Source of the DNA: Brachyspira murdochii DSM 12563
GTDB taxonomy: Bacteria; Spirochaetota; Brachyspiria; Brachyspirales; Brachyspiraceae
NCBI RefSeq assembly: GCF_000092845.1
Contig: NC_014150.1
Coordinates: forward strand, 1-64,000
Length of the DNA: 64,000 nt
Direction: 5' to 3'
Part shown: positions 27,314-35,343 of the stretch, piece by piece
How the letters are laid out: every line of letters starts with the position of its first letter
Numbering within the stretch: the first letter of the stretch is position 1
Position numbers and translations under genes: made by a program
The notes under the pieces: generated by a model
Seen by the model: the letters and a program-made list of their open reading frames with translations, nothing else
Database searches by the model: none
Told to the model about the DNA's origin: nothing

Positions 27314-29854
27314 TTAATACTCAAAAAAATTATTCATATCGTTAAATATTTCTTTCATACTTGCCTTTATCACTTTAGCATTAGGAAGAGATTGAATGAA
27401 TTGAACGCCGTAATTTTTGGTATAGAGCCTTTTATCGAGTACAAATACAACCCCTCTGTCATCTTTACTTCTTATAAGGCGTCCAAAACCCTGCTTGAAC
27501 TTTATAACGGCAAATGGAAGGGCGTAGTCTAAAAATGCATTTCCTCCATTTTCTTCAATATATCTGTATCTTCCTTCACTTATAGGGTCTGTTGGTACAG
27601 CAAACGGCAGTTTTGGTATAATAACTACTTCCAAATTTTTGCCTGCTACATCAACACCTTCCCAGAAAGAATCTACTCCGTAAAGTACATTGTTTGAAGA
27701 TGATTTGAACATATCAAGCAGAGTATGTCTGTGTACTGATGCTGTTTGAGCTAAAGCATTTATATTTTTACTCTTTAATTTTTTAACAGTATTTTCATAT
27801 ACACTCATAAGTGATGAGAAAGATGTGAATAATATAAAAGCTCTTCCTCCTGTAATATCGCATACATCCAATAGTACTTTTGATGTAAAGTCATTAAATG
27901 TATCAGAGGCAACATCGGGCATATCAGCTGCTATATAAAGCCTTGCATTATCCTCATAATTAAAAGGCGATTCCAAATATATTTCTATTTTTTTATTTTT
28001 TTCTATATAATCAAAACCCAGTCTGTTTGAGAAAAAATTAAAACTTTTTGATACAGTTAAAGTAGCAGAGTACATTGCAACTGTATCAAATCTTGAATAT
28101 AGAAAATCATTTAAATTTTTTGCTACTGTTACAGGTGTCAAATGCCAATTTAGTATAAGACTTCCTTTTTTTGTGAGTCTTGTCTCTATCCATCTTATAT
28201 ATTCATCTTTTTTATAATCTATTACAGCATTTAATGATACTAATTGTCTTTTTAGTCTCTCTAAATATGCATTTGCCATTTGTGCTATTTCTTCATAATC
28301 AAAATCTTTTTCAATGGCTATATCAAAAAACTTTTTGTATAATTTATCGCAAATATTTACAAGAGAAGTCATTGAAAGCACCATCTCTCTAAGAGGTTTT
28401 AATCCGTCATTTTTCCAATGATTAGTATTTACAAGTTCTGGGCTTATTCTAAATTTATAGCCTAATCCTTCTTTTGTTTGTATGTTTTTATGGCAGTAAT
28501 TCATAAACTCTTTTGTTTTATCTTCAGTAACATTTCTTACCCTTGAAGTTAAATCATGAGCTTTATTTATTAAGTCTAGTATTTCATCATATTCATGCTT
28601 TTCGATTAATGATTTCTTATCATTAAGCATATTGTTAATACTTTCTATAATTCCAAGTCTCTTATTTTTCTTCATTCTTGAAATATAAAAAAGTGCCTTT
28701 GATATTCCGTTTTTACTTCCTTCATCTCCAAAATAGCTTGAAGCAGAGTTTTCAAAATTATGTGCCTCATCGATTAAAACTTTTGTATATCTAGGAAGTA
28801 GGCTGTATCGTCCTGCTGTTTCTGCATATAAAGATAAATCTGCACATAGTATATGATGATTAACTATTAATAACTGAGCTGCATTTAACTGCTTACGCAT
28901 TTTATAAAAATAGCAGTCTTCCAAGTATTCGCATTTTCTATGAGTACAGGTATCGGTATCGCAGGCAACCATTTCCCATAATTCTCCCTGCGGTCTGTAT
29001 CCCAAATCTGTTATAGAACCGTCTTTAGTTATACTAAGCCAATTATTAATATCTTCAAAAAATCTTATCTGTTCTTCAAAGTCAAGTCTGTCAGTATCAT
29101 TTAAAGCATCTTTAACCTTTTTTATGCATACATAATTGTTTCTGCCCTTAACCAAAGCATATTTTACATTAGGGGCAATTCCTCCTATAATAGAAGGTAT
29201 ATCCTTTGATATAATTTGTTCCTGTAAGTTTATAGTGTTGGTAGAAATTACTATTCTAGTTTTATTTTCTTTAAGCCATAATAGGGCAGGTACTAAATAT
29301 GCAAAAGATTTTCCTATTCCAGTGCCTGCTTCTGATATTAAATGTTTATTATTATTAAATGATTCAATGGTAGCTTCAACAAGTTCTGTTTGTTCTTGTC
29401 TGTATTCGTACTTTTTTAATAATTTGCTCAATGTACCGTTTTCTGTGAACATATATAAAGCGTCTGGAACATCTATAGTTTTTATATTTTCTGCTTTTAT
29501 CGGCTTTACTACTTCATAATAATCATCAACATCATTATTAACTATATAAAAACCTACACCAGCATTATTTCCAAGTTCGCTTGCTATTGCTAAATCAGGT
29601 CTTGAAGGTGTAAGCTGTCCAGATGGGTGATTATGAATTACAGCGTCAAACTCTAATGATAATGATATTATAGCAGGTACAGAGTCTTTGTTTCCTCTAG
29701 CCATAACTTCTATATAATCAAGTATACCGTAGGCATTAAAATTTATTCCAAAGTATACTTCATTGCCGTAAGCATCTGCTATTGCTTTTCTCATGTAGCT
29801 TATTGCGTTTGTAGAAAATACGCTGTCTATTTCTCTGTCATAATTATTACTCAT
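27314..29854 (-). CDS. JAMM/RadC-like domain fused to a DinG/XPD-type helicase
   Basis: The 846-residue protein has two parts. Residues 1-120 form a JAB/RadC-like domain with a full metal motif H74-x-H76-x10-D87 in IHNHPSGQLTPSRPD and Glu49 upstream. Residues 150-846 form an XPD/DinG superfamily-2 helicase: Walker A EAGTGIGKSFAY, four cysteines of an Fe-S cluster (CDTDTCTHRKCEYLEDC near 325-340), DEAH in LIDEAHNFENS and a C-terminal motif QGFGRLIRSKDDRG. DinG unwinds forked DNA, R-loops or quadruplexes. The JAMM fold is a metallopeptidase in other contexts, while RadC activity is unsettled. The fused domain could act on DNA-bound proteins; that is inference. Confidence 0.88.
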   Translation of the reverse strand: MSNNYDREIDSVFSTNAISYMRKAIADAYGNEVYFGINFNAYGILDYIEVMARGNKDSVPAIISLSLEFDAVIHNHPSGQLTPSRPDLAIASELGNNAGVGFYIVNNDVDDYYEVVKPIKAENIKTIDVPDALYMFTENGTLSKLLKKYEYRQEQTELVEATIESFNNNKHLISEAGTGIGKSFAYLVPALLWLKENKTRIVISTNTINLQEQIISKDIPSIIGGIAPNVKYALVKGRNNYVCIKKVKDALNDTDRLDFEEQIRFFEDINNWLSITKDGSITDLGYRPQGELWEMVACDTDTCTHRKCEYLEDCYFYKMRKQLNAAQLLIVNHHILCADLSLYAETAGRYSLLPRYTKVLIDEAHNFENSASSYFGDEGSKNGISKALFYISRMKKNKRLGIIESINNMLNDKKSLIEKHEYDEILDLINKAHDLTSRVRNVTEDKTKEFMNYCHKNIQTKEGLGYKFRISPELVNTNHWKNDGLKPLREMVLSMTSLVNICDKLYKKFFDIAIEKDFDYEEIAQMANAYLERLKRQLVSLNAVIDYKKDEYIRWIETRLTKKGSLILNWHLTPVTVAKNLNDFLYSRFDTVAMYSATLTVSKSFNFFSNRLGFDYIEKNKKIEIYLESPFNYEDNARLYIAADMPDVASDTFNDFTSKVLLDVCDITGGRAFILFTSFSSLMSVYENTVKKLKSKNINALAQTASVHRHTLLDMFKSSSNNVLYGVDSFWEGVDVAGKNLEVVIIPKLPFAVPTDPISEGRYRYIEENGGNAFLDYALPFAVIKFKQGFGRLIRSKDDRGVVFVLDKRLYTKNYGVQFIQSLPNAKVIKASMKEIFNDMNNFFEY

Positions 29855-30232
29855 ATAGGTATAATAATATAGTATATATTGAAATCTTTGTCAATGATTT
29901 TTTAATTATAAAAGTTAAATAATATAGTTGTATTATGATTTAAAAGTATATTATTTTTTTAATGAAACTATCTTTACAGAGCATATATCTCTTTTTATAT
30001 TAATACTGCTTTATAATCAAAATATTAAAAAATTATAACTAATTTTTATAAATCTATTAAATAATAATTGTTTTATTGTGTTTCTATTTTATGTAATATA
30101 TTAGAAATATATTTTATTAATTATTTTTTATATTAAAAATAAATTTATTTTCATTAATAAATATTATATTAAATTTTAATAGCATGTTTATTTATATTTT
30201 TATATTTTAAAAAATAAATAAAAAATTATATA
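29855..30232. other. Gene-free, extremely AT-rich spacer
   Basis: About 380 nt between the divergent helicase and AAA+ genes. It holds no ORF of note, no GC-bearing hairpin and no recognised RNA, only A/T tracts and the promoters of the two flanking units. The length is unusual for this compact region. Confidence 0.6.
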
Positions 30233-30260
30233 TTGACTTTTTTATAAAATAATGTATTAT
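30233..30260 (+). promoter_or_regulatory. Promoter of the AAA+ operon
   Basis: TTGACT (30233-30238), a 16-base spacer and TATTAT (30255-30260). It predicts a start near 30267, 16 nt before the ATG at 30283, leaving just room for the SD. Confidence 0.6.
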
Positions 30261-30282
30261 ATTGTCAGTAAGGAATAAAATA

Positions 30283-31614
30283 ATGAAAAAAATAGTAGAA
30301 TTAGATAAGCCCAAATTTGATGATAAATTAAAAGCAGAATATTCTGAATTTTTTGATTTTTTAAATAAAAAAATAGATGCTTTTGATATGGTTAATACTA
30401 ATATAAAAAGTTTGTTTGTATATTTAGTATTTGATAGTGTTTTGTACAATATTACTAGACCTGAAAGTGTTATTTGCAGATTTTCAAAGCAAGTAGAAAT
30501 ATCAAAAGAAGGAGATATAAAAATCTCTCTTTTGAGATTTCAGTTGGATACTTTGATTAACGATTATAAATATAATAATTTAAAAATTATATTATTTTTT
30601 AATATACCAGAAGATGAAATTTTATCAAAATATTTAATACCTAAAAACTCAAAAAATAATACTGTATCAAATACAGATGACCCTGTTTTAAATGTTGTAC
30701 CTATAAAACCAATATATAGCTTAAAACAAATGGTATTAAATCCGGCAACATATGATGAAATTAATAAAATTATTATTATGATAAAAAATATTGATAAAAT
30801 ATATAATGAATGGGGGTTTTCAGAAATAGATTCTGTACCAAAATGTATTGTTAATTTTTTTGGTCCTCCGGGTACTGGAAAAACTATGGCAGCACATGCT
30901 ATAGCAAATGAATTGGGGGTTAATATACTAGCATTGAATTATGCTGATATAGAATCTAAATTTGTGGGAGATGCACCTAAAAATTTAGTATCGGCATTTA
31001 AAATAGCTGAAAAAGAAAAATCTATGATGTTTTTTGATGAAGCAGATTCTTTTTTGGGTAAAAGAATTACAAATGTTAGTTCTAGTTCTGATCAGGCTGT
31101 TAATTCTTTAAGAAGCCAGATGTTAATTTTATTGGAATCATTTAACGGCACAGTAATATTTGCAACGAATTTACATAAAAATTATGATAGTGCATTTGAA
31201 AGCAGAATATTGAAACATATAAAATTTGAACTGCCGGATTTGGATATGAGAGCCAAAATAATAAGAAAAATGATACCTAGTAAAGCTCCTATAGATTGCA
31301 GTTTATTTACAGATGAGTATTTGTTAGAACTATCCAATATATTAGATGGATTTTCTCCAAGAGAAATAAAAAATACTATATTGGATTTATTTATATCATT
31401 TTTGTATAGCGGTAATACTGAAATAGATAAAGAATTTATTAATAATGTATTCAAAAATGCCAAAGAAAAATTTGATGAAGTAAAAAATAAGACTAATTTG
31501 TCTTCTGAGGCAAAAAAGAAATTAGAATCTTCTATCAAAGATAACTTGGAAAATAATAATTATGTTGTAGAAAAAATAAAGGAGAATACTGAAGAAGAGA
31601 ATAATATTAATTAA
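30283..31614 (+). CDS. AAA+ ATPase (SpoVK/Cdc48-like), head of the MIVLK operon
   Basis: Start at 30283 because AAGGA lies 8 nt upstream; a TTG at 30262 has no SD. The 443-residue protein has an uncharacterised N-terminal domain (1-145) and one AAA+ module: Walker A GPPGTGKT (194-201), Walker B MMFFDEAD (about 248-255), sensor 1 VIFATN, an arginine in ESRILKH, and sensor 2 FSPREIKN, all classical-clade AAA features. The C-terminal 60 residues are Lys/Glu/Asn-rich and helical. No membrane segment. The next six genes follow within 0-42 nt; four of their products share a C-terminal sequence. By analogy with other AAA+ proteins it may thread or remodel tagged partners, which is inference. Confidence 0.85.
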   Translation: MKKIVELDKPKFDDKLKAEYSEFFDFLNKKIDAFDMVNTNIKSLFVYLVFDSVLYNITRPESVICRFSKQVEISKEGDIKISLLRFQLDTLINDYKYNNLKIILFFNIPEDEILSKYLIPKNSKNNTVSNTDDPVLNVVPIKPIYSLKQMVLNPATYDEINKIIIMIKNIDKIYNEWGFSEIDSVPKCIVNFFGPPGTGKTMAAHAIANELGVNILALNYADIESKFVGDAPKNLVSAFKIAEKEKSMMFFDEADSFLGKRITNVSSSSDQAVNSLRSQMLILLESFNGTVIFATNLHKNYDSAFESRILKHIKFELPDLDMRAKIIRKMIPSKAPIDCSLFTDEYLLELSNILDGFSPREIKNTILDLFISFLYSGNTEIDKEFINNVFKNAKEKFDEVKNKTNLSSEAKKKLESSIKDNLENNNYVVEKIKENTEEENNIN

Positions 31615-31656
31615 AAATTATTATAATATATAAATTTTAAATAAGGAGAATAGAAT

Positions 31657-32154
31657 ATGAATTATAACAAAGATGATATATTGAGAGTTGCAAGAGATTA
31701 TATGAAAAAAATAGAAATATCTAATAAAGACACTATAGATAGTATATTAGATAAACTAAAAAAACTTCCTGAAGATGGTGTGGCAAAAATAACTGATTAT
31801 TTAAAAAATTTAAATCAGGCAGTATCTAATCATGAAGAGGGAGTATTAGGTATTATCAAAGAAGCTTGGAACTTGCATGAAGAAAAAAGAGAAGTATTGT
31901 CATTAGAAGATTGTATTTCTATGATTAAAGGGAATATTAATCCTAAAGAACATTCTGCTGCATGCATATTTTTGAAAAGTACTGGTAAAAATTCTAAACA
32001 TTATGCTAATTATGAAATTCATGTTTTTTATATGGATCATAATAATAATCCTATGATAAATGGAAATAGTCCGCATTGGATAATATATACTAATGAATTG
32101 TCAAAGGATTTGAGCGAAGAATTTGGTAATGGTGATATGATAGTATTAAAATAA
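31657..32154 (+). CDS. Tagged protein 1 of the MIVLK operon
   Basis: A 165-residue soluble protein with SD AAGGAG and no signal peptide. The first 75 residues are helical and charged (DILRVARDYMKKIEISNKD); the middle has a mixed region with NPKEHSAACIFLKSTGKN and HYANYEIHVFYMDHNN, which looks like beta strands. It ends FGNGDMIVLK. Apart from that tail it does not resemble the other operon members, which makes the shared C-terminus stand out. Family not recognised. Confidence 0.75.
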   Translation: MNYNKDDILRVARDYMKKIEISNKDTIDSILDKLKKLPEDGVAKITDYLKNLNQAVSNHEEGVLGIIKEAWNLHEEKREVLSLEDCISMIKGNINPKEHSAACIFLKSTGKNSKHYANYEIHVFYMDHNNNPMINGNSPHWIIYTNELSKDLSEEFGNGDMIVLK

Positions 32155-32170
32155 TTATTAGGAGTGTAAA

Positions 32171-32500
32171 ATGAATTTCTGGAAAGATTTATTAAAAAAG
32201 TTATGGGGAAAAATAAAAAAGATTTTTGCTAAAGTACTGAACTTTATGAAAAATATCTTAGATTTTTTCAAAGATCCAAGCAGACTTGCAAAATTAAAAG
32301 CTAATAACGATTTATTGGCTATATCCATTAAAGAAAAATTAGAAAGCGGAAATTATAGAACTGTTAATTGTTTATTTAATAATTCTACTAAGGAAGTAGA
32401 GGATTATAGTGAAGAAAATGCACTAGGTATAGAGTCAGAATCAATAGATGCTCAAACATCAAATACCTTTAGTGATAAAGATATGATTGTTTTAAAATAA
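32171..32500 (+). CDS. Tagged protein 2: cationic amphipathic helix plus MIVLK tail
   Basis: A 109-residue protein with SD TAGGAG. Residues 1-43 form a strongly basic amphipathic helix (MNFWKDLLKKLWGKIKKIFA and on), with Trp, Phe, Leu and Ile on one face and Lys on the other, much like a membrane-active peptide. A small domain follows (NDLLAISIKEKLESGNY, then FNNSTKEVEDY) that also occurs in the 132- and 137-residue proteins of this operon. It ends FSDKDMIVLK. No signal peptide cleavage site is seen. A membrane-binding or membrane-disrupting role is inferred from the helix only. Confidence 0.75.
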   Translation: MNFWKDLLKKLWGKIKKIFAKVLNFMKNILDFFKDPSRLAKLKANNDLLAISIKEKLESGNYRTVNCLFNNSTKEVEDYSEENALGIESESIDAQTSNTFSDKDMIVLK

Positions 32501-32512
32501 ATGGAGAATCAA

Positions 32513-32899
32513 ATGGAGGGTAAGGATATGTTATATGCTTTAATCGGAGCTATTGTAGTTGTTGGAGGCGGATTTATTATATATAAATTATCAAAAGTAG
32601 CAGCTAATAATTTAGTTAATAAGGCTGTATATAAAGATATTGTAACTATGGAAGAGCTTATTAGATTTTATAAAAATGATGATGTTATACAGCATTTAAA
32701 AGAAAATAAAGATTTATTAGCAGTTGCCATAAAGAAACAACTAGATGATGGTAATATACATATATTAGCAACAATTTTCAATAATAATACTAAAGAAGCA
32801 GAATATATTGAAAAATATATGTTAAATTATAAAACTGCCAAATTAGACGAAGATTTGAAAAATGCTTTTAAAGATAAAGATATGATAGTGTTAAAATAA
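32513..32899 (+). CDS. Tagged protein 3: transmembrane helix plus MIVLK tail
   Basis: The frame opens at an ATG at 32501, touching the previous stop codon. I prefer 32513 because GGAG lies 6 nt upstream; ATG 32528 with GGAGGG is also possible. The 128-residue product has one N-terminal transmembrane helix (LYALIGAIVVVGGGFIIYKL), a helix with MEELIRFYKNDD, then the shared domain (KDLLAVAIKKQLDDGN, FNNNTKEAEY) and the ending FKDKDMIVLK. Orientation is probably N-out, C-in, because Lys residues follow the helix; that would leave the tail in the cytoplasm near the ATPase. Unknown family. Confidence 0.72.
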   Translation: MEGKDMLYALIGAIVVVGGGFIIYKLSKVAANNLVNKAVYKDIVTMEELIRFYKNDDVIQHLKENKDLLAVAIKKQLDDGNIHILATIFNNNTKEAEYIEKYMLNYKTAKLDEDLKNAFKDKDMIVLK

Positions 32900-32901
32900 T
32901 T

Positions 32902-33447
32902 ATGGGTGCTTTAATATTTATAATATTTTATTTCATACTAACTAGGATAGCATTAAAAATAAAAAGTAATATCAGTAATAGAATTATTTATTATATTACT
33001 GATATTATATTTTTTATATTAATAATGTTTTTATTGTATGATTATTTTTTATTTGAGAATGGATTTATTAATAATAGAATTGTTAATATAATACCATTTC
33101 ATATAGGTTTCTTATCTATTTTAGATAAATTCTTTATATATTCTTATAATATAATAAATAGTTTAATTGGATTTTTGATAAATTTGAATGAAAATAAACA
33201 ATTAATACTGATGAATGATGAATATAAAAAGATGCTTATTGTAGAATTGGCAGTGATAGTATTTTCTATTCTTATTTTGTTTAGAGCTAGGATGATAAGA
33301 AAAAAGATAAAAAATTATTATTCAGATACTAGCCCTGCTCTTAGTATTATAGAAAGTGAAATAAGGAAAAATCTTATATTGAATAATATGTTAAAAATAT
33401 CTAAGTTTGTTATTTTTATAATAACTATATGTTGTATAAAATTATAA
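32902..33447 (+). CDS. Membrane protein of the MIVLK operon (no tag)
   Basis: A 181-residue protein beginning 2 nt after the previous stop, with no SD of its own, so translation is probably coupled. It contains about four to five hydrophobic helices (MGALIFIIFYFILTR, IIFFILIMFLLYDYFLF, LIVELAVIVFSILILF, FVIFIITICC) and basic loops. It lacks the MIVLK tail. It resembles no family I know. As one of two untagged membrane proteins in the operon it could be a membrane partner or protector of the tagged proteins, which is a guess. Confidence 0.65.
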   Translation: MGALIFIIFYFILTRIALKIKSNISNRIIYYITDIIFFILIMFLLYDYFLFENGFINNRIVNIIPFHIGFLSILDKFFIYSYNIINSLIGFLINLNENKQLILMNDEYKKMLIVELAVIVFSILILFRARMIRKKIKNYYSDTSPALSIIESEIRKNLILNNMLKISKFVIFIITICCIKL

Positions 33448-33456
33448 GGAAATGTT

Positions 33457-33870
33457 ATGGGAGAAATAATAGATGCTATCATAGATATAATACGTACTTT
33501 TATTAATATAATAAGAAGAATAATAGTTAAAATAATTAATTTTGCTAAACATATTGCCAGATTTTTTAAAGATAAAATAAAGCAGTTTAAAAAAGATATA
33601 TCAAAAATTTTTATAAGCTTGAAGCTTGATAAAGATGAATTTTCTAAAAAGATTGCTGAGAATATGGAGAGCGGAAATTATAATGAAGTAAGTATGCTTG
33701 ATCTTAGTCCGGAAACTGAAAAGACTGTTATTAATGTTGTTTATGATAGAGATACTAATTCTATAACAGATTATGAGGAGAATGCTGAGCTAATAGAGGC
33801 AGAAAGCGGCATAGATCAGGTAACCCTTAAAAAATTCAAAGGCAAAAATATGATTGTTCATAAAAGCTAA
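33457..33870 (+). CDS. Tagged protein 4: amphipathic helix plus MIVHK tail
   Basis: A 137-residue protein with SD AAGGAA. Residues 1-55 are a long Ile/Phe-rich basic helix (IIDIIRTFINIIRRIIVKII, then FKDKIKQFKK). The following domain (FSKKIAENMESGNYNEVSML) and the acidic DYEENAELIEAESGID stretch align with the 109-residue protein (DYSEENALGIESESID), so the two are paralogues. It ends FKGKNMIVHKS, a variant of the tag with His for Leu and one extra Ser. Membrane association is likely; no signal peptide is seen. Confidence 0.75.
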   Translation: MGEIIDAIIDIIRTFINIIRRIIVKIINFAKHIARFFKDKIKQFKKDISKIFISLKLDKDEFSKKIAENMESGNYNEVSMLDLSPETEKTVINVVYDRDTNSITDYEENAELIEAESGIDQVTLKKFKGKNMIVHKS

Positions 33871-33889
33871 TTATATTATTGGAGATAAT

Positions 33890-34120
33890 ATGGAAAAGAT
33901 ATATTATGACTTTATGCTCTTATCATCTATAATAATATTTTTTATTATTAGAAAAACATATAAATCATTAAAAGCTGCAGCTTTTGTTTCAAAACAATAT
34001 GGTGAATATACAATTGAAATAAAATTATATAAGTTATTATATTTATTATTATTTTTGTCATCTTTTGCTTTTCTAATATATTCATTTTTAGAATTTATCA
34101 GTTTTATAGTAAAAGATTAA
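33890..34120 (+). CDS. Small two-helix membrane protein of the MIVLK operon
   Basis: Start at 33890 because TTGGAG lies 6 nt upstream; the frame stays open upstream but overlaps the previous gene. The 76-residue product has two hydrophobic helices (about 8-22, FMLLSSIIIFFII; and about 50-70, LLYLLLFLSSFAFLIYSFL) joined by a basic loop. It has no tag. It is the last gene of the operon; a convergent minus-strand gene ends 36 nt further. Function unknown. Confidence 0.6.
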   Translation: MEKIYYDFMLLSSIIIFFIIRKTYKSLKAAAFVSKQYGEYTIEIKLYKLLYLLLFLSSFAFLIYSFLEFISFIVKD

Positions 34121-34155
34121 TAATAAGTTTATTCATTATTATACCAATAATTTAT

Positions 34156-35343
34156 TTAATTATAATAAGCCAAACTTTCATTAGAAACTGCATCATTATA
34201 ATTAGTTACATCGAATGTGAACATAGTCTTTACTTTTTCATTTGTCAAAGGAGAGTAGAAATTATGTATAAGTTCATATCCTTTTTTAATGGCATTAGTA
34301 TCATAAGCACTATAAACATAATTGCTTGAGAGAGTAGGCATACTAATATTAGGGTCTTCTTTTATGGGCTTCATTACTACTTCGAAGCCGTTTTGTCTAA
34401 AGAAAGCATAATAAGTTGGAACATATGAAAAACTAATTTCTCTGTTTTCATTTATATTTAATGAAACCACTGTACCTATATCGAGATAAGGGTATCTTCC
34501 CTTGTGATTTGCAATAAAGTTTCCAAGCGAATATATTATTATACCGCTATGATTAGTACCTTCATATATTTCTGCAGGTCTTGGTACATGCGGGTGATGA
34601 CCTACTATTATATCAACGCCGTTTTCTATCAAAGCTCTGGCAGTTTTTATTGTAGCTTCTTCTGGAGCTGTTGTATATTCTAAACCAAAGTGCAGAGATA
34701 TTATTTTTATTTCATTGTTTGTAGCAAGGGCTAAATCGGACTTTACTTTTTCTATCAAATCTTCCTGTTTAGGATAAAAGTTCATAAAGTAGAAATAATC
34801 GTTTTTATTAGTTTTATGGCTAAGTCCATTATCAAGCATGGTATAGGCAGATATAAAAAGAGGTATATTATTAATATTTGTTATAATAGGTGCTATGTTA
34901 GGAGAGTTAGTAGATCCTCCTAAAGTTAATTTATTATTTCTATGAAGTTCTGCTACAGTTTCGGCTTCAGCCTGAGCTCCTTGATCATAGGCATGATTAT
35001 TAGCAATAGAAAATGTATTAAAATAGTTAAAGAAATATTTTAAATAATCTAAAGAGCCATTAAACTCTGGATAAGGCATAGGAGGTTTATTTGTATTAAC
35101 AACAAACTCTAAATTTGCAAAAACAATATCACCTTGAAAATACTCTTTTAAATCTATTAAAACATCATTACTTTGAAATGCATTCACTATAGTAGGGTGC
35201 GTCATTATATCGCCAGTAAATACCAGCTGAATGCTTTTAGGAGGTTCTGGTATTTTTTGTTCTTTTTCTGTGCTATCCTTTTTGTCAGAGCATGATAACA
35301 GAGAAAATATTAATAGTATAGTGATGATTATTGTTTTTATCAT
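34156..35343 (-). CDS. CapA/PgsA-family metallophosphatase-like lipoprotein
   Basis: The 395-residue protein has a lipoprotein signal (lipobox LLSC at 15-18) and a calcineurin-like CapA domain: VFTGDIMTHPT, NLEFVV, SIANNHAYDQG and VDIIVGHHPHVPRP carry the Asp/Asn/His metal ligands. CapA relatives take part in poly-gamma-glutamate capsule synthesis; many homologues in non-capsulated bacteria have unknown substrates. No capsule genes (capB, capC) are near. It is the last gene of a minus-strand group cheX - amidase - CorC - capA, 50 nt after CorC. Confidence 0.85.
   Translation of the reverse strand: MIKTIIITILLIFSLLSCSDKKDSTEKEQKIPEPPKSIQLVFTGDIMTHPTIVNAFQSNDVLIDLKEYFQGDIVFANLEFVVNTNKPPMPYPEFNGSLDYLKYFFNYFNTFSIANNHAYDQGAQAEAETVAELHRNNKLTLGGSTNSPNIAPIITNINNIPLFISAYTMLDNGLSHKTNKNDYFYFMNFYPKQEDLIEKVKSDLALATNNEIKIISLHFGLEYTTAPEEATIKTARALIENGVDIIVGHHPHVPRPAEIYEGTNHSGIIIYSLGNFIANHKGRYPYLDIGTVVSLNINENREISFSYVPTYYAFFRQNGFEVVMKPIKEDPNISMPTLSSNYVYSAYDTNAIKKGYELIHNFYSPLTNEKVKTMFTFDVTNYNDAVSNESLAYYN

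Follow-up and report, generated by a model that had tools for sequence, protein, structure and literature searches.

The window analysed here, bases 1 to 64,000 of the 3.24-Mb single-contig genome of Brachyspira murdochii DSM 12563, holds a compact operon of seven genes on the plus strand (30,283 to 34,120), in which an AAA+ ATPase is followed by four proteins that end in a common MIVLK-type tail. We found that this tail is the conserved end and the last beta-strand of a C-terminal domain of about 80 residues shared by the tailed proteins, and that the domain is linked exclusively to one clade of ATPases. In our best reading, to which we give a probability of roughly 50%, the tailed proteins would form a membrane-tethered complex that is gripped at the shared domain by a threading AAA+ motor. 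The operon bears on the question of whether AAA+ motors can read the C-terminal strand of a folded domain as a handle.

Four tails behind one AAA+ ATPase

The open reading frames and the four tails behind the ATPase were confirmed as described in an earlier inspection of this DNA (hereafter the sequence-only reading). When the pattern MIV-x-K, followed by a stop directly or after one codon, was searched in the whole genome, eight matches were obtained; four of them are the operon tails, and the remaining four do not look like the ends of any comparable genes. The tail is also kept in homologous operons from other genera and phyla. The operon contains the following features.

30283..31614, plus strand: AAA+ ATPase, 443 amino acids (Pfam, alignment, PDB relatives)
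31657..32154, plus strand: protein B, 165 amino acids; soluble helical N-terminal part and shared C-terminal domain; ends FGNGDMIVLK
32122..32151, plus strand: tail of B, FGNGDMIVLK; MIVL is the last beta-strand in the AlphaFold2 model
32171..32500, plus strand: protein C, 109 amino acids; cationic amphipathic N-terminal helix and shared domain; ends FSDKDMIVLK
32468..32497, plus strand: tail of C, FSDKDMIVLK
32501..32899, plus strand: protein D, 132 amino acids; one N-terminal transmembrane segment and shared domain; ends FKDKDMIVLK
32867..32896, plus strand: tail of D, FKDKDMIVLK
32902..33447, plus strand: 181-amino-acid protein with several hydrophobic segments, without tail
33457..33870, plus strand: protein C', 137 amino acids; second amphipathic-helix paralogue of C; ends FKGKNMIVHKS
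33835..33867, plus strand: tail of C', FKGKNMIVHKS
33890..34120, plus strand: 76-amino-acid hydrophobic protein, without tail

Conservation of the 181-amino-acid protein is limited to the closest homologous operon (L026).

The tail is the last strand of a shared C-terminal domain

The sequence-only reading regarded the 165-residue protein B as otherwise unlike the other three, and took the tail for a stand-alone tag on dissimilar proteins. Families B, C and D were built from homologous operons of other genera (Metabacillus L036; Lachnospiraceae L038; Bacteroidota L037, L039, L040, L226, L227 and L228; Clostridia L229) and from four other genomes of the same genus, and the family profiles were compared by local hhalign after removal of the last 12 C-terminal residues, together with 60 column shuffles. 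With the tail removed, B aligned with D over 73 columns (E 4.3e-7) and C aligned with D (E 2.7e-12), and the match between B and C was weaker (E 1.3e-3); none of the 60 shuffles scored as high in any of the three comparisons. The homology beyond the tail spans about 70-80 residues, showing that B was wrongly set apart from its neighbours. In the AlphaFold2 model of B (seven sequences), the C-terminal 93 residues take the order beta-alpha-beta-beta-beta-alpha-beta, with predicted local distance difference test (pLDDT) scores mostly of 70-89 in the domain, and MIVL forms the final strand (residues 161-164). Because B aligns without the tail and the model makes MIVL the last strand, the tail is considered to be the end of the shared domain and not a tag in its own right. 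Searches with the B model, at 66 pLDDT, gave no convincingly similar solved structure in Foldseek (best E 0.07) or VIA-align (best Z 3.9), and the small proteins of the operon had nothing of weight in Pfam, NCBIfam, PHROGs or PADLOC.

An ssrA-type degron, or another AAA recognition tag placed on otherwise unrelated proteins, would account for a tail that is C-terminal and strictly linked to an AAA+ ATPase. Such a tag is very unlikely, since the tail-bearing proteins are homologous without it and the model predicts a folded tail. Moreover, the ATPase has no fused protease and the window operon no protease gene, its seven proteins giving no peptidase match in Pfam.

The position of the C-terminus is fixed: 43 of 48 copies of the domain stop exactly one residue past the final strand, and the penultimate residue is Leu in 37. 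Compared with the other columns, the last six are better conserved in B and D, a difference that is less clear in C (among 20,000 random column sets, 82 for B, 135 for D and 1,120 for C scored as high). If being a folded strand were the only demand, extensions would be tolerated, and yet these ends are fixed; we infer that the free C-terminal end is under selection, exerted either by the ATPase or a partner subunit. It may instead be that the tail is purely structural, serving as the last strand that pairs B, C, C' and D in a membrane complex while the ATPase docks elsewhere. Consistent with this, MIVL is modelled as a strand in B, the homology of B, C and D reaches about 70 residues beyond the tail, and other positions of the domain, namely the Asp and Phe that precede the tail and the hairpin residues, are conserved like the tail itself. 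Both the higher conservation of the last six columns and the fixed stop, which a pure structure would not need, argue the other way, and we consider a purely structural tail a real possibility at somewhat less than even odds.

One domain is carried on different N-termini

The membrane character of the N-terminal parts was predicted from the sequence. B lacks a transmembrane segment and D has a single one; the helices of C and C' are amphipathic and mostly cationic. The Planktothrix operon (L032) encodes four small transmembrane proteins whose tails are LVIYQ, VVIYE, LVIYE and YVIYTLS, a D-like protein ending FRGKDMIVMT, and a 699-amino-acid protein (L032 825-2924; DSFQNKDLLIFE) in which Hsp70-like and TPR regions are joined to the same C-terminal domain, ending FQNKDLLIFE. 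The B protein comprises 640 amino acids in L042. A single domain joined to such varied partners, and encoded each time together with this one ATPase, would fit a common docking or handling module.

L042 (G002:C249), whose tailed operon is divergent, is a small contig from a genome with 7% contamination and is probably not a Brachyspira sequence; it also has an integrase-like open reading frame and a HECAH metallopeptidase-like one. Most tailed operons are accompanied by a fourth small family, A, which is absent from the window operon (L025 1987-2268, reversed; L028; L036-L040; L226-L229; L042). Its members have 88-102 amino acids, one transmembrane segment and a strand-like C-terminus of the IYLY type.

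The domain accompanies one clade of ATPases

The ATPase and the small-protein profile were found in exactly the same 5 of the 26 genomes of the genus. Profile searches in other groups were positive in 4 of 393 genomes of one Bacteroidota order, in 1 of 399 genomes of one Bacilli-type class, and in 3 of 391 genomes of one Clostridia-type class, where two matches were true and the third (L230), which sits inside housekeeping-type genes, was rejected as a false positive. The true matches in all three groups adjoin the ATPase without exception. In a tree of the ATPase core, which excludes the partner sequence, all 12 tail-partnered rows formed one group (support 99/93; 98% of the bootstrap trees; 0 of 500 shuffles). 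Outside it fell the 40 relatives whose neighbours are of other kinds, and the tail-partnered clade spans at least five phyla. The co-occurrence of tail and ATPase, which the sequence-only reading had named as a check, is borne out; homologous operons without the tail and tails without the ATPase, the two outcomes it had named as contrary, were both looked for, and neither was found. These patterns of occurrence support a functional tie of the tail-bearing proteins to this ATPase.

In the same tree, Metabacillus joins the spirochaetes and one Lachnospiraceae genome joins a Prevotellaceae one, implying horizontal transfer. No tail-domain neighbour accompanied the best IMG/VR matches of the ATPase (35% and below), and protein C gave no phage or plasmid match. 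No published description of the operon was found in the open-access literature.

A classic AAA ATPase and a possible mechanism

The ATPase matched PF00004 with 94.8 bits (Pfam cut-off 21.2) and has a complete classic AAA core, with Walker A GPPGTGKT, Walker B FFDEAD and the conserved arginine 308 in invariant alignment columns. It also has an N-terminal domain of about 120 amino acids and a charged C-terminal tail, and its best PDB relatives by sequence search are only generic AAA proteins of the CDC48/VCP/Vps4 type. The pore loop, ESKFVG, is aromatic, and F/Y-V-G is seen at this place in most family members. An aromatic residue followed by a hydrophobic residue and Gly is typical of the pore loop in AAA proteins that thread polypeptides, such as Vps4, spastin and FtsH. 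Walker A is preceded by 176-201 residues in the three Brachyspira ATPases measured and in most tailed-clade ATPases of Bacteroidota and Bacillota, compared with 70-110 in most untailed relatives, so the extra N-terminal domain is mostly missing there.

If the best reading holds, B as a soluble subunit, C and C' through their membrane-surface amphipathic helices and D through its transmembrane anchor would assemble via the shared domain at the inner membrane face. The ATPase, of the classic hexamer type, would engage the domain at the free C-terminal end through its N-terminal domain, its pore loops or both, and would then pull or disassemble the complex, changing the state of the membrane, most likely in response to phage or another envelope insult.

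Several observations weigh against such a mechanism. A strand that lies buried within its own domain would offer an ATPase an awkward handle. The AlphaFold2 model of D (15 rows), with a pLDDT of 55.7 and an unstructured tail, was too poor to be informative. The pore loop of the Planktothrix ATPase, ESPLLG, is without the aromatic residue. In addition, homology between the extra N-terminal domains of the Brachyspira and Bacteroidota ATPases was not detectable on comparison, and those of the Planktothrix and Geobacteraceae ATPases are shorter.

The operon is an accessory, moving element

Comparison with the two closest genomes placed the operon within a single insertion.

29929..34164, no strand assigned: insertion carrying the whole operon, 4.2 kb

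In those two genomes the operon is missing, and the same flanking genes, 93-95% identical, are separated by 10-17 bp; one genome whose locus is free of the operon (G017) has a divergent copy elsewhere, adjoining a groEL gene. Between the helicase-like gene (27314-29854) and the CapA-like gene (34156-35343), many relatives carry cargo of other kinds. The operon is, from its genomic context, an accessory and horizontally moving one. Its neighbours in L037 include AbiD/Abi_2 and a dynamin-like GTPase; regulators with a WYL domain are present near L226 (Pfam) and beside the relatives L060 and L257 (by eye). Because the insertion is clean, the cargo at the interval varies and such genes are neighbours, the operon would fit an accessory conflict or envelope-stress system, and for a role in defence we see about an even chance. 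In the cargo interval (window 29854-34165; L235-L253), a restriction-type protein was seen in L237, and a Colicin-DNase/WHH nuclease-domain protein adjoins the Metabacillus operon on the opposite strand (L036 8084-8983).

A frameshift or stop splits the ATPase gene in L039 and in three of the four other operons of the genus (L026, L027 and L028). In these operons most small genes stay open, with B also broken in L028; the splits could be decay or assembly error. They bear on a less likely but coherent alternative, a toxin-restraint or abortive-infection module in which C, C' and the transmembrane proteins, once released, damage the membrane and the ATPase restrains or triggers them. Cationic amphipathic helices and transmembrane segments would suit such a module, as would the sporadic distribution, the clean insertion, the defence-type neighbours and an AAA core that is nearest in PADLOC to IetA, the ATPase of an anti-phage system. 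Unless the splits are assembly errors, open small genes beside a disrupted ATPase in several relatives speak against a necessary restraint.

Two other arrangements were seen around related ATPases. In L035, L049, L052, L060, L063, L064, L066 and L258, the ATPase is followed by a protein of about 420 amino acids and a membrane protein of 490-715 amino acids that looks like the MotA/TolQ/ZorA type, with an OmpA-like protein also in L035, L064 and L258 (by eye); these loci may be an undescribed Zorya-like system. In L031 (4478-5801), L045 (6477-7885) and L069 (2630-4007), the ATPase immediately follows a small protein that looks alike at all three loci and is annotated in L031 as a TipAS antibiotic-recognition domain.

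Comparison with known systems

Among the PADLOC models, the AAA core of the operon is most like that of IetA (1.9e-28), which works with the protease IetS in the anti-phage system IetAS. Membership was rejected, because the NCBIfam model NF042959 gave 80.5 bits against a cut-off of 510 and no IetS-type protease gene is adjacent; the partners here are instead small membrane-type proteins. Unnamed AAA operons of Selenomonadaceae, Moraxella and Comamonas (L047, L033 and L034) share a related ATPase core followed by small transmembrane proteins with strand-rich C-termini, but their ATPases are without the extra N-terminal domain and outside the tailed clade, and the tail domain profile gave no match. 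The ssrA tag and other C-terminal degrons also link a short conserved C-terminal sequence to an AAA+ machine; they differ in that the sequence here is the end of a domain shared by operon-specific proteins, and not a transferable tag.

The ESCRT-III/Vps4 (Cdv) systems, grouped here with bacterial PspA/Vipp1 and its AAA+ partners, resemble the operon in having one AAA ATPase with a classic core and an aromatic pore loop, and several paralogous membrane-binding partners (here predicted) with a conserved C-terminal element. In the operon this element is the end of an alpha/beta domain (as modelled for B); ESCRT-III instead has a helical MIM motif borne by a coiled-coil protein. We rejected membership, since no MIT domain was found on the ATPase among Pfam matches up to E 1 and no Snf7/PspA match was found in Pfam for any operon protein, so the two are alike in logic and not homologous. 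A PSP survey has described bacterial Vps4-like ATPases in which snf7 is replaced by unrelated transmembrane or TPR genes (PMC11237479). Tentatively, the operon may encode a membrane-remodelling or immune machine with ESCRT logic without common descent, in which an AAA+ motor uses the shared domain end as a handle and which has reached at least five phyla by horizontal transfer. If true, this would be a mobile system of a motor and its membrane substrates in bacteria, in which the ESCRT/Vps4 logic arose independently and the handle is a very small domain. The shared domain would then count as a protein family not described before, and the operon as a candidate system for defence or envelope stress that occurs in gut spirochaetes, Bacteroidota, Bacillota, Cyanobacteria and others.

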